A stretch of 64,000 nt of DNA. Source: Clostridiales bacterium CHKCI006 (lineage in GTDB: Bacteria > Bacillota_I > Bacilli_A > Erysipelotrichales > Coprobacillaceae). The position numbers and the translations under genes were made by a program. The notes below the pieces were generated by a model that was not told the DNA's origin, searched no databases, and was given only the letters and a program-made list of their open reading frames with translations. This document shows, in pieces, positions 24,066 to 28,063 of the stretch. Position 1 is the stretch's first letter. Each line of letters begins with the position of its first letter. The stretch covers positions 62,001 to 126,000 of the forward strand of contig FCNA01000129.1 in NCBI GenBank assembly GCA_900018345.1, written 5' to 3'.

Positions 24066-24091
24066 TTTAAAAGCCTTTCGAAAAAGGCTTA
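24066..24091 (-). terminator. Terminator after the CPBP protease gene
   Basis: Minus strand AAGCCTTTTTC pairs with AAAGGCTT and runs into TTTTAAATT; the CPBP stop codon is in the 5' arm. Confidence 0.55.
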
Positions 24092-24796
24092 GACAAGCAA
24101 TGTCAGCATCATGCTCACAAAGTTATTGGACATATGCACCAGTACAGGAACGGCTAACGTTCCTTTTTTTTCATACAGCCAGCAAAAGACCATCCCTAAA
24201 AGTCCATATGGCAAAAGATATGCGAGCTGGCTTAGATCGCCTGCCAGCAGGCCATCCAGGATATGAACCAATCCAAAGATTCCTCCACTGGCCAAATAAG
24301 CGGCTATGCGGCTATAAGGATAGATGCCTTTAAAGATAGCTACTCGAAAAACAAGTTCTTCCAATAACGGTGCAATCACGATGCTGGCCAGCAATATAGG
24401 CAGCGGTTGTACTTCCAGCATGCTTACCAGCGCATTCTGATTGGCGCTGCTTGAACCCGGTTCGATCAATTGAACCAGCATACCAGAAAGAATATTTGCA
24501 CCATAGATTATGATAAAGCCTGCCGTCAAGGACCACAGGATCGTTCTGATCCAGCGACCCTTGATCTGACGAAACTCCTCTTTCAGGAAACGGTGAAAGA
24601 TCAGCACCGCGATGATCAGCATGCCAGTATCATAAAAGAGATTGTACCAACTGTTAAGTTCAACAGCTCCCATCGATACATGACCTACGCGCAAAATAAG
24701 CGCAAAAAGAAAAGAAAAAATCAGCGGACCAAAGAAGAAATAAAGTGGCAGCAGAATTGCCCATCCGGCTATCTTCTCAAATTTCGTTAAATTCAT
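24089..24796 (-). CDS. CPBP family intramembrane glutamic endopeptidase
   Basis: 235 residues with about seven hydrophobic segments. The Abi/CPBP family includes Rce1-like proteases and bacteriocin self-immunity proteins. Catalytic motif 1 PLLEELVFR (paired Glu and Arg), motif 2 FGLVHIL, and a final conserved VPVLVHMSNN with His/Asn. Substrate unknown. Overlaps the upstream membrane protein gene by 20 bases, so the two are coupled. Confidence 0.88.
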   Translation of the reverse strand: MNLTKFEKIAGWAILLPLYFFFGPLIFSFLFALILRVGHVSMGAVELNSWYNLFYDTGMLIIAVLIFHRFLKEEFRQIKGRWIRTILWSLTAGFIIIYGANILSGMLVQLIEPGSSSANQNALVSMLEVQPLPILLASIVIAPLLEELVFRVAIFKGIYPYSRIAAYLASGGIFGLVHILDGLLAGDLSQLAYLLPYGLLGMVFCWLYEKKGTLAVPVLVHMSNNFVSMMLTLLV

Positions 24797-25586
24797 CCTG
24801 TACCTCCTCCTTTATCTGTTCAAAGAACAGAACCAGCGCTACCTGATACTGCGCCTGATATAAATAAATTTCCAGCAAAGTAATTGCTAATCCCGCAAAG
24901 CTGTAAAGCCAGGCACTCAGGTAATAAGCACTGAAATAATTCAAAAAGAAACAGATGGCTGCAGGTGCCAGAAAACGCAGCTGTAAGAGAAACAGGTCTC
25001 TTTTATGTCCACGCATCAGACGGACGGAGGCTTTCAGACTGGCCAGTCCTCTGATCTGACGCGTTTCCAGAAGATAAGGCGCTGCAAAGAAAAAGAGATT
25101 GGTCAGCCAGCGAATCACAAGATCTGCTGCCAGAGCGATCAGATATAGAATCTGCACCACTCGGTACAACGCAATTTCACTCACCTTGCCAGATAATAAA
25201 GAGGCCTCCAGACCCAAGACGTTGGTCTCGCCTAAAACAAGTGCATAAATTCCAAACAAAGCTAAGTACAGGAGGATAAGATTGATGAGCTCAATCCATC
25301 CATAGGTACTGAATAATTCTTTAAAACGGACAAAACCGCACAATCCATCCATACGGATATCCAGCGGCGCATCCTGTTTGATCACTTTATAGCTTGCGGT
25401 GATCCTCCCGTGATACAGCGGCGCAACAATAAATAAAGCCATCAGGGTAAACAGGCCGCCTAAGACAGTGCCGATCTCACTGATCAGCATATGCATGATG
25501 GCTATATATAAAAAGACAATAAAAAGCATCTTTCGATTAGCCATAAAGATCTCTGAACTTCTTTCAACAAGCTTGCGAATTTTCAT
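24777..25586 (-). CDS. DUF975-like multi-pass membrane protein
   Basis: 269 residues, about six transmembrane segments. SLKASVRLMRGHKRDLFLLQLRFL resembles the DUF975 core (regular SxxLMKGNKWRLF-type motif), which is the basis of the call; function of that family is unknown. ATG at 25586 lies six bases from GGAGG; the in-frame ATG at 25592 touches it directly and is rejected. Forms an operon with the CPBP protease, which hints at a shared envelope role. Confidence 0.6.
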   Translation of the reverse strand: MKIRKLVERSSEIFMANRKMLFIVFLYIAIMHMLISEIGTVLGGLFTLMALFIVAPLYHGRITASYKVIKQDAPLDIRMDGLCGFVRFKELFSTYGWIELINLILLYLALFGIYALVLGETNVLGLEASLLSGKVSEIALYRVVQILYLIALAADLVIRWLTNLFFFAAPYLLETRQIRGLASLKASVRLMRGHKRDLFLLQLRFLAPAAICFFLNYFSAYYLSAWLYSFAGLAITLLEIYLYQAQYQVALVLFFEQIKEEVQDEFNEI

Positions 25587-25647
25587 AAGCATCCTCCCTC
25601 AATGCCTATATTATACTTGATTTAGTTCAAAGAAACAACGCATACAA

Positions 25648-25986
25648 TCAATGAATATCCAGGCTTGTCTTGATGGCACGATTCACTTTGTCCATCAGTT
25701 CGTCACTGATCTTACCAACACAGCCTTTGAGGCGTTGTTTATCGATCGTTCGTATCTGTTCCAATAATACAACGGATTTTTTCTCCAATGCGCCCTCATC
25801 AATCAAAACATGAGTGGGCAGATGGTTTTTTGTGAGCTTTGATGAAATAGGTGCTACGATCACTGTCGTAGAAAAGCGATTTCCTTTATTGTTCTGCACA
25901 ATTAAAACAGGGCGGTATCCTCCCTGTTCGCTGCCTACCACAGGCGAAAGATCAGCATAGTAAATTTCTCCTCGCATCATACTCAT
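25648..25986 (-). CDS. mazF: MazF/PemK-type mRNA interferase toxin
   Basis: 112 residues. MazF endoribonucleases cut single-stranded mRNA at short motifs and are held off by MazE. Family pattern: MMRGEIYYADLSPVVGSEQGGYRPVLIVQNN, then VIVAPISSK, LPTHVLI, VVLLEQIRTIDKQRL. ATG at 25986 follows GAGGG by five bases. The usual mazE is not adjacent: a terminator and a 59-residue unrelated gene lie upstream. Confidence 0.9.
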   Translation of the reverse strand: MSMMRGEIYYADLSPVVGSEQGGYRPVLIVQNNKGNRFSTTVIVAPISSKLTKNHLPTHVLIDEGALEKKSVVLLEQIRTIDKQRLKGCVGKISDELMDKVNRAIKTSLDIH

Positions 25987-26040
25987 AGAATCCCTCACAT
26001 TTCTAATTTACTATATGCCTGCTTTCTCTTTTCAAGCACA

Positions 26041-26065
26041 AAAAAGATGGTCACAGGACCATCTT
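26041..26065 (-). terminator. Terminator after the 59-residue protein gene
   Basis: AAGATGGTC (26044-26052) and GACCATCTT (26057-26065) form a perfect 9-bp stem; T run on the minus strand. Includes part of the stop codon and separates the gene from mazF. Confidence 0.88.
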
Positions 26066-26243
26066 AGTTTGGCAATTTACATGGCGTTGGTCGCAGCATC
26101 TCTTGACCGTAGCGGGTCTCAAGGTAACTGACAGGCATCAGCGACAAAGTAAATTGACCGCGTTCATCTTTGACAATCGAAGCAAAAACAATCACAGGTG
26201 CTTCTTTATTGTCTGGCTTTGGATGTTTTTTTGATTTAGACAT
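26064..26243 (-). CDS. Small 59-residue protein, unknown
   Basis: ATG at 26243, with a GGGG seven bases upstream, and TAA at 26064 overlapping a strong terminator. Lysine/proline-rich N-terminus (SKSKKHPKPDNKEAP) followed by a short beta-prone stretch (VIVFASIVKDERGQFTLSLM) and one cysteine near the end. Not a MazE-like fold as far as I can see. The clean terminator supports a real gene; no family recognised. Confidence 0.6.
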   Translation of the reverse strand: MSKSKKHPKPDNKEAPVIVFASIVKDERGQFTLSLMPVSYLETRYGQEMLRPTPCKLPN

Positions 26244-26316: not shown

Positions 26317-26346
26317 AAAAAAAGTGAACTTGAGTTCACTTTTTAT
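26317..26346 (-). terminator. Terminator after the cadherin-like membrane protein gene
   Basis: AAAGTGAAC and GTTCACTTT around TTGA, with T-rich flank on the minus strand. Confidence 0.8.
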
Positions 26347-27971
26347 TTTGTCTGATTTTGATCATGATTAGCGTAGAAGAGCTGATCGATATAGCGCTGG
26401 ATCTCTGTCATCGGATCTTCCTGATAAGCAGGCTCGCTGACTGGTTTCGCAGGCTGCTTAACTGGCTCAGAAGAAACTGAAGCAGGATCTTTAGGAACAG
26501 GTATAGACGTCTCTTTCCGTTTAAAGCGTTCTTTAGCGCTTGTGGTTTCTGTATTTTTCTTTTTAACCGACTTTTTCGCATCCGTTGTTTTCTTAACTGG
26601 TTTTTTGGCCGTCTGACTCTTTGCCGCCGGTTCAACCGTTGGATCAGTGCGTACTTTTTTGGTCGTCTGACTCTTGACAACTGGTTCAGCAGACGTTTCC
26701 GAACGTGATTTTTTGGCCGTTTCGGCTGTTTTCTTTTTAGCCTGCGCACTGCGTGTGAGTTTTTCAGCCTCCAGCGCCTGTGTACGCGCCAGTTTCTTTT
26801 CTTCAAGCTGGGCAACCTGCTTTTGATGTGCCGCTTTTCTTACCTTTTCGACCTCTTGCTTAGCTGTTTGAGGCTGATCGGTAGGCTGCGCATAGATCTT
26901 TACTTTAGAGGTACGAACCAATTCCACATGATCAGGCACCCTTGTTTTCTTCTTGTTTTTTCGTTTGGCCGGATTGACATGGTTACCGATGGTCTTAGCC
27001 GTTTCTTTTAGGCCACGCTTACGATTAGCACTGACAATGACGACAGCAAAAATAGCAGCCATCACAACAATGATCCCAACCGCCACTAACAGCGGCATTG
27101 GAATACCTTGCCGAGAGCGCCCCACCTCTGATTCGAATACACGACGATCAACAAGTGTTTTATTTTGCGTATCATAAACATAGTAATTAGAGGTTCCCGT
27201 TTCATCTGTTAAATAAAGCATATAATAGCTGGCATAATCCGCATCATTAAAGGTCCAGCCATCAAGCGTCTCGCCCTGCACTTCAATACTGGTAAACGTG
27301 CAGCCGTCCTGACTTTGCATATCACTGGCGACCCCAGTGTAAAAATAGCGGTGGCGGTTAAAGACCATGGCCTTGAAAGGTCCGGTAACTGCCCCATCCT
27401 GATAAGCATACCAGCCTGCCGTTCCGTTGCCATCCTGTAGATTGACAATTTGGAAGTTCAGTGCATCCATCTGCCAGACGCGGACCTCACTACCTTCATA
27501 CACCGCCCGGCCTTCACTGAAGCCTTCTGGCACCGTTGTCGTATCAATATTTACAGTAAAGCCTAAGCTGCTTTCTTCATATACCGTCGTCAATACAGGT
27601 GTATTGCTCAAGGTCACACTGATTCGATAGGTCGTTGTTTCCCCGCCATCCTGTACACGAACACGGTAAGTATCACTTGTATCCTCGATCGTGAAGCTTC
27701 CCGTTCCGCTCACCTCAGCTTCTGCATTGGTCGGTGTCGCGGATATCTCAATGGTTGTTGTATCTTCCGGCAAGACCACAGTGTACTCCGTCACATCATC
27801 GCTCAAGACCGGACTGAGCGGTGCATCATTGACGCTAAGATCCTGTAAGGGACCCGTCAAGGTCGTATTTTGGACAGTCGGTTCCGCATACACCGGAACT
27901 GTCTGAAGCGTTGATATACCTAGAAAAAGAGCCAGGCTCAGCAAAATCTTTCTTCCTATAGCATTGCGCAT
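26343..27971 (-). CDS. Secreted-membrane protein with cadherin-like beta-sandwich and lysine-rich tail
   Basis: 542 residues. Signal peptide 1-29 (KILLSLALFLGIS, cleavage after VYA). Residues ~45-122 match the cadherin-like beta-sandwich repeat (LSVNDAPLSPVLSDDVTEYT to TTYRISV). An extracellular domain of unknown type follows to ~290, then one transmembrane helix (~292-314, PLLVAVGIIVVMAAIFAVVIV). The cytoplasmic tail, ~315-542, is very rich in Lys, Thr and Ala with imperfect repeats around AKSQTAKKP. ATG at 27971 behind AAAGGAG is preferred to one 24 bases upstream. Looks like an envelope adhesin or sensor; role unknown. Confidence 0.75.
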   Translation of the reverse strand: MRNAIGRKILLSLALFLGISTLQTVPVYAEPTVQNTTLTGPLQDLSVNDAPLSPVLSDDVTEYTVVLPEDTTTIEISATPTNAEAEVSGTGSFTIEDTSDTYRVRVQDGGETTTYRISVTLSNTPVLTTVYEESSLGFTVNIDTTTVPEGFSEGRAVYEGSEVRVWQMDALNFQIVNLQDGNGTAGWYAYQDGAVTGPFKAMVFNRHRYFYTGVASDMQSQDGCTFTSIEVQGETLDGWTFNDADYASYYMLYLTDETGTSNYYVYDTQNKTLVDRRVFESEVGRSRQGIPMPLLVAVGIIVVMAAIFAVVIVSANRKRGLKETAKTIGNHVNPAKRKNKKKTRVPDHVELVRTSKVKIYAQPTDQPQTAKQEVEKVRKAAHQKQVAQLEEKKLARTQALEAEKLTRSAQAKKKTAETAKKSRSETSAEPVVKSQTTKKVRTDPTVEPAAKSQTAKKPVKKTTDAKKSVKKKNTETTSAKERFKRKETSIPVPKDPASVSSEPVKQPAKPVSEPAYQEDPMTEIQRYIDQLFYANHDQNQTK

Positions 27972-28063
27972 GTTTTTGCTCCTTTCATTTTGCATCCAAA
28001 TAACAAATCAATTTTACTATAAATCCCGCCAAAATGAAAGTCTCTTCGCGTTTTTTCTCTATA

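Follow-up and report, generated by a model that had tools for sequence, protein, structure and literature searches.

Putative single-cohesin membrane anchors for co-encoded dockerin enzymes in Bacilli, and a cohesin-less member with a polycationic cytoplasmic tail

In a 64-kb stretch of bacterial DNA (the window, that is, the whole sequence analysed) we found a gene for a one-pass membrane protein belonging to an apparently undescribed family. Members of this family are probably transmembrane anchors with a single cohesin, which dock co-encoded dockerin enzymes, the window copy being an anchor that lacks the lock and carries a polycationic tail. The interpretation draws on the computed domain layout, homology, gene linkage and the joint absence of cohesin and dockerin. 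From the domains and the gene order we infer that cohesin and dockerin bind each other; the partner enzyme may trim the cell's own wall.

Results

Gene, reading frame and flanking genes

The longest open frame on the minus strand begins at 27995, which corresponds to a protein of 550 aa, and stops at 26343-26345. The AAAGGAG sequence listed in Table 1 is spaced 7 nt from the ATG at 27971, making this start likelier than 27995 and favouring the start chosen in the first-pass annotation. Residue numbers therefore refer to the 542-aa form (550-aa numbers minus 8) unless stated otherwise. The hairpin at the 3' end of the gene is likely a terminator. The tail-coding part is in frame, and GC3 shows no break there, with values of 0.41 for the tail, 0.47 for D2, 0.52 for the cadherin part and 0.39-0.50 for three neighbouring genes.

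Table 1. Features of the gene and its product, with positions in the window.
Feature	Residues	Positions	Strand	Basis
Whole gene, 542 aa		26343..27971	minus	ATG 27971 to TAA 26345-26343
Shine-Dalgarno-like AAAGGAG		27979..27985	minus	7 nt ahead of ATG 27971
Signal peptide	1-29	27885..27971	minus	hydropathy; cleavage after VYA judged by eye (predicted)
Cadherin-like beta sandwich	43-123	27603..27845	minus	PF12733, 17.1 bits, below cut-off
D2, two tandem beta repeats of ~75 aa	~126-280	27132..27596	minus	model, duplication
Transmembrane helix	~291-313	27033..27101	minus	Kyte-Doolittle peak 3.3
Cytoplasmic Lys/Thr/Ala-rich tail, net +28 (predicted)	314-542	26346..27032	minus	hydropathy, composition
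Hairpin with T runs on both sides		26319..26344		called on the plus strand only

Genes for a MazF-like protein, a DUF975 protein and a CAAX-type membrane protease come after the gene on the minus strand (24089-25998). The gene is separated from the mazF-like gene by a 59-aa ORF (26064-26243, minus strand), which is followed by a hairpin and has no Pfam match at E ≤ 0.05. At a related locus (L033:9843-11474) DUF975 and protease are fused into one protein of 543 aa, hinting that the two work together. An SpdC-like regulator was considered for the CAAX-type gene (24089-24796) and set aside, since the top-ranking NCBIfam model, MroQ, stayed below its cut-off.

Domain layout and predicted topology

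Hydropathy analysis agreed with the signal peptide and single membrane helix described in the first-pass annotation: the N-terminus resembles a signal peptide, and one strong helix occurs further towards the C-terminus. Together with the basic residues flanking the helix and the pairing of the relatives' N-terminal module with a secreted dockerin protein, these elements support a type I membrane protein (outside, membrane, inside) whose tail is predicted to be cytoplasmic, as had been proposed. The residues directly ahead of the helix (FESEVGRSRQGIPM) are free of an LPXTG-type motif, and what follows the helix is a tail of 229 aa, not a short basic end. A sortase-anchored adhesin of the LPXTG type was rejected on these grounds. 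By hydropathy alone, the helix is present in 118 of 121 distinct family members, while L020, L069 and L145 show none.

The cadherin-like domain assigned to the protein earlier is better founded in the family than in the window protein, whose PF12733 match of 17.1 bits stays below the curated cut-off of 24.2. All 29 aligned family members match this model at E ≤ 0.1, and the paralogue L002 reaches 33.7 bits, which is above the cut-off. DUF4369 (E 0.009) was also below its cut-off in the window protein, and weak NCBIfam rows for AuxB (E 0.003) and MreC (E 0.009), both far below cut-off, fall on the membrane helix and the tail; none of these was retained.

The lysine content of the ectodomain is 0.8%, the lowest among 119 members (median 9.9%). 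With the ectodomain (27132-27845) nearly lysine-free as against 18% lysine in the tail, there is a strong charge split over the membrane.

D2 is a conserved tandem duplication

The second extracellular domain, for which the first-pass annotation had no name and which we call D2, turned out to be real and conserved. AlphaFold2 modelled the D2 segment of the window protein, using 48 related rows, as a mostly beta structure with one C-terminal helix (pLDDT 91.9, pTM 0.83). Its halves, residues 126-202 and 203-280, match each other in hhalign at 97.5% (E 5e-12), compared with 0.05-0.3% for either half against the cadherin-like profile. This mutual match indicates that D2 arose by tandem duplication.

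Searches of the PDB with D2 gave no Foldseek match at E ≤ 0.001 (best 0.026), a best Z of 3.5 in VIA-align and nothing convincing by sequence, the one ribosomal S11 row having an E of 0.18. No Pfam or NCBIfam model fits D2 above cut-off among the models and members scanned. The missing PDB match does not prove a new fold. Both halves resemble EF-P domains weakly, and we do not claim kinship. A D2-only profile matched in 22 of 295 genomes of the phylum, in each case at places known from the whole profile, apart from one marginal partial match in G643 (E 6.7e-4).

Distribution of the family

A paralogue is encoded on contig C107 of the same genome and shares 31% identity with the window protein over residues 42-284 (550-aa numbering; E 4e-32). 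The full window protein found matches in 34 of 98 relatives, a set in which the genus is represented by the window's own genome alone; a pattern scan with the protein found no relative. When a profile of the conserved part was used, matches came from 96 genomes of the order (315 searched) and 68 of the class (296 searched), although many rows in both counts are cadherin-only matches. Scanning GTDB contigs with a closer subset confirmed at least 379 relatives. The best 80 of these, which were kept, include Beduini massiliensis, Merdibacter massiliensis, Longibaculum muris and Massilimicrobiota, as well as many Bacilli and some records labelled Clostridia. The window protein itself (contig C103 of its genome) matches the profile of the cadherin-like domain followed by D2 with an E of 5.1e-80, a profile that includes its own row. 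Judged from these matches, the family appears to be widespread, mainly in Erysipelotrichales and other Bacilli. No description of the anchor-enzyme pair was found in the literature searched, which mostly did not extend to subscription papers.

The tail is the extreme of a variable region

The Lys/Thr/Ala-rich tail, put at about 225 residues in the first-pass annotation, measures 229 aa with 18% K, 6% R, 12% D+E and a net charge of +28. Its best 150-aa stretch (+27) ranks first among 50 non-overlapping window ORFs of at least 150 aa, the next having +14. The imperfect repeats that had been seen in it did not hold up: TRF reported none at score 30, and the best internal self-alignment was equalled in 30 of 300 shuffles of the tail and hence is not above chance.

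Among 118 members the window tail is first in both length and net charge (the next charge being +12). Tails of the others range from 3 to 155 aa, and the second-longest, of 155 aa, has a net charge of -13. The other long tails (60 aa or more) are mixed-charge, from -15 to +12, so that a strong polycation is not a trait of the family, and the window tail is the extreme of a fast-changing region and not a new part. A surface protein with an internal polycation, regarded earlier as unusual, is thus unusual in degree: charged cytoplasmic tails recur in the family, and the window protein has the most extreme one. Elsewhere in the genome no homologue of the tail was found besides the tail itself. 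There was a stray weak match to ribosomal protein L19 (E 0.13).

Relatives carry an N-terminal cohesin-type module

Typical members have a module of ~95-125 residues, often with a Ser-rich linker, between the signal peptide and the cadherin-like domain. The window protein is without it, only 43 residues including the signal peptide preceding the cadherin unit (550-aa numbering). PF00963 (Cohesin) matched 36 of 76 N-terminal modules at E ≤ 0.01, with a best value of 4.7e-10, and a profile of all 76 modules matched cellulosomal cohesins in the PDB (best 1.4e-6). Antibody rows in this PDB search were disregarded; most of their alignments cover profile positions from 1 to about 57, where signal peptides predominate.

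Comparison of module sets pointed in the same direction. Thirteen Erysipelotrichales-type modules matched 32 canonical ones at 98.2% in hhalign, and a third set (n=10) matched both others at 94.6% and 99.0%. In the same test the family's own cadherin-like domain, used as control, gave 3.6% and 8.4%. The module of Beduini has no Pfam match on its own; its model (pLDDT 97.5) is a generic Ig-like fold for which cohesins score Z 7.8-7.9, on a par with PKD and further Ig folds, and it is consistent with a cohesin without being decisive. In the window genome (G000) the Pfam Cohesin model has no match at E ≤ 0.1.

Dockerin partners are often of a predicted wall-hydrolase type

Of 21 neighbourhoods inspected, 15 show the same arrangement, in which the gene immediately upstream of the family gene encodes a member of protein cluster c1. 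Scans of five c1 proteins identified a GH73-type Glucosaminidase domain in each and a type I dockerin in four. The fifth (L037:8902) lacks the dockerin and lies downstream of its anchor. In the window genome, the partner beside the paralogue combines GH73 (PF01832, 1.6e-17) with a dockerin (2.8e-16) and matches the endo-beta-N-acetylglucosaminidase structure 4q2w (E 5.6e-21).

From named loci 73 partners of at least 150 aa were extracted, and 68 were scanned after excluding five cut by contig ends. Pfam assigned Dockerin_1 to 65 of them, SH3_3 to 25, Cadherin-like to 23 and Glucosaminidase (GH73) to 13, besides M6 peptidase (3), GH25 (1) and a metallo-beta-lactamase fold (1). NCBIfam was applied to six partners, five of which match SagB glucosaminidase at 5e-9 to 7e-16, all far below cut-off; the sixth (L156) matches the bifunctional autolysin structure 6fxo (5.4e-6). 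These matches make the enzyme type clear wherever an Erysipelotrichales partner matches GH73; for many other partners a peptidoglycan-hydrolase type is likely but not proven. Judged in the same way, some partners are of other type, with an M6 peptidase or metallo-beta-lactamase fold.

The neighbours at L035 and L040 are of the latter kind, being metallo-beta-lactamase-fold proteins with a dockerin (L035 by scan, L040 by similarity). ComEC-like proteins of this fold with a C-terminal dockerin adjoin the anchor gene at L035:6899-8149, L040:9749-11056 and L131:3333-4595. One further protein, of 398 aa (L050:1729-2925), carries a dockerin at its C-terminus (Pfam E 1.5e-18) and an N-terminal domain that looks lysozyme-type by eye, and it shares an 18-kb stretch with an anchor-enzyme pair.

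The cohesin-type module and the dockerin are nearly always present or absent together

The linkage of module and dockerin was counted in 122 distinct members, four of which were set aside (three truncated at contig ends and one whose upstream sequence was too short). A dockerin lies within 600 nt upstream in 105 of 115 members with the module and in none of the three without, the window protein being one of these (Fisher p 0.001, relatedness ignored). The exceptions are L085, L090, L132, L136, L137, L138, L140, L141, L142 and L145. In nine of these ten the gene order is reversed, and a relative of the L136 partner (an M6 peptidase carrying a dockerin) is encoded immediately downstream. The downstream dockerin itself is seen in five (L132, L136, L140, L142, L145); at L085, L137 and L138 the sequence stretch ends before the dockerin end of the partner, and at L141 only its front part matches. 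L090 has a dockerin on neither side and is an exception without explanation. In the reversed sub-clade (L136:1579-4461, L132:2043-4937, L142:5797-8673 and relatives) the gene for the dockerin-tagged protein, which at L136 is of the M6 peptidase type, begins just where the anchor gene ends.

The same pattern was observed at the level of genomes. Among 43 relatives, 18 genomes have the family, and 16 of these also have a dockerin match; in the remaining two (G015 and G017) the only copy is without the module. Dockerins are rare, only 25 of the 43 genomes having any, with one to three matches each, which makes adjacency by chance unlikely. The two dockerin matches of the window genome sit in one gene, next to the paralogue on contig C107.

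The window gene has no dockerin neighbour, and within the 64-kb window none was found (best E 2.5). Without cohesin and dockerin neighbour the window copy cannot dock an enzyme by this route. The order of family gene, MazF-like gene and DUF975/CAAX-type genes is kept in three other genera (L033, L035, L040), whose family genes retain module and dockerin neighbour. This shared order suggests that lock and partner were probably lost at the window site. The three proteins without the module group in a single clade (96/81) with long branches, that of the window protein being 1.74. We therefore dropped the idea of three independent cohesin losses, and the clade, read with caution because of its long branches, may reflect a single loss event.

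Discussion

Most of what is known about cohesin-dockerin locks comes from complexes that degrade fibre. In the family described here, the cohesin would hold a dockerin-tagged secreted enzyme, most often of peptidoglycan-hydrolase type, on the side of the wall that faces the membrane, at a distance that the stalk may set. The window protein would then be a spin-off stalk. Its D2 and cadherin parts could retain contacts outside, either with a wall polymer or with the intact paralogue anchor, while the basic tail would hold an anionic partner inside, such as inner-leaflet lipid, an acidic protein or nucleic acid. Such a stalk with outer contacts and an inner anionic partner is the most likely role we can name for the window protein, although we put it forward tentatively.

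Other readings of the window protein have to be weighed against this one. It might be a relic of neutral drift whose tail lengthened without function after cohesin and partner were lost. The loss itself, the branch length of 1.74 and the variation of family tails from 3 to 155 aa would all agree with this, but an intact 542-aa frame with a good ribosome-binding site and a 3' hairpin, a confident D2 model and a tail free of any GC3 break make drift unlikely. We regard as quite improbable that the protein is an envelope receptor or adhesin that connects the surface to the nucleoid through a DNA- or RNA-binding tail, a reading that builds on the nucleic-acid binding suggested in the first-pass annotation. 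A net charge of +28 in 229 aa with 18% Lys, including the most charged stretch of the 50 window ORFs, speaks for it, and the stray L19 match could also be cited. However, Lys-rich stretches often give matches of this kind, the tail has no homologue elsewhere in the genome, and a strong polycation is not typical of the family.

Reversed topology, with the tail outside as part of an adhesin binding teichoic acid or wall, is the least probable of these readings, and extremely so. Polycations bind teichoic acids well, and the tail would suit such a task. This arrangement conflicts with the succession of signal peptide, one membrane helix and NRKRGLK, an order which relatives share, basic ends included; moreover, the relatives have an N-terminal module whose partner is a secreted dockerin protein, and no LPXTG precedes the helix.

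We thus favour the enzyme-docking anchor, with the window protein as its lock-less form. A wider version, doubtful as a whole, would describe a non-cellulosomal cohesin-dockerin device of gut and other Bacilli that docks secreted enzymes, chiefly glucosaminidases acting on the cell's own peptidoglycan, on a one-pass D2 stalk, with charged tails reporting or steering from inside. The window protein would represent an enzyme-free branch, in which a polycation tail ties an envelope site to a cytoplasmic polyanion and charge inside replaces the enzyme outside.

Known systems resemble parts of this arrangement. ScaE of Ruminococcus flavefaciens is a single-cohesin cell-surface anchor (PMC2930009). 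Relatives of the window protein likewise appear to offer a single cohesin, on a protein anchored at the surface, to a dockerin partner; the window copy, unlike ScaE, has no cohesin. ScaE is furthermore attached to the wall by sortase through LPXTG and holds a cellulosome, whereas the family is predicted to be membrane-anchored, with cadherin-like and D2 domains and a neighbouring secreted enzyme. By analogy, the nearest working likeness to the proposed mechanism is SagB-SpdC of Staphylococcus aureus, in which the glucosaminidase that releases nascent glycan from the membrane is under the control of a membrane protein (PMC12272431). Both cases pair a glucosaminidase with a membrane protein, and family partners match GH73 or, weakly, SagB. 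SpdC, in contrast, is integral to the membrane and belongs to the CAAX protease family, while the tether proposed here would be a cohesin-dockerin contact on a stalk with one membrane helix.

Dockerin-bearing cell wall hydrolases, comparable to the family partners, have been described in Ruminococcus champanellensis together with the idea of a 'lyticome'; they belong to a cellulosome scaffoldin system, and the available text mentions no dedicated co-encoded transmembrane anchor (PMC6403190). A non-cellulosomal cohesin fold occurs in NagJ/GH84C of Clostridium perfringens (PDB 2jh2, 2w1n), which appears in the match lists of the module. There the cohesin is part of a glycoside hydrolase, whereas in the family it would sit on a transmembrane anchor.

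The D2 domain recurs across Erysipelotrichales and other Bacilli, beyond any model scanned at cut-off. If the pair binds, bacteria otherwise poor in dockerins would hold a wall-cutting enzyme at the membrane by means of cohesin and dockerin, which would be relevant to the question of how cells position and restrain their autolysins. The window protein would then be a natural case of the lock removed, in which stalk and tail are separated from enzyme docking.
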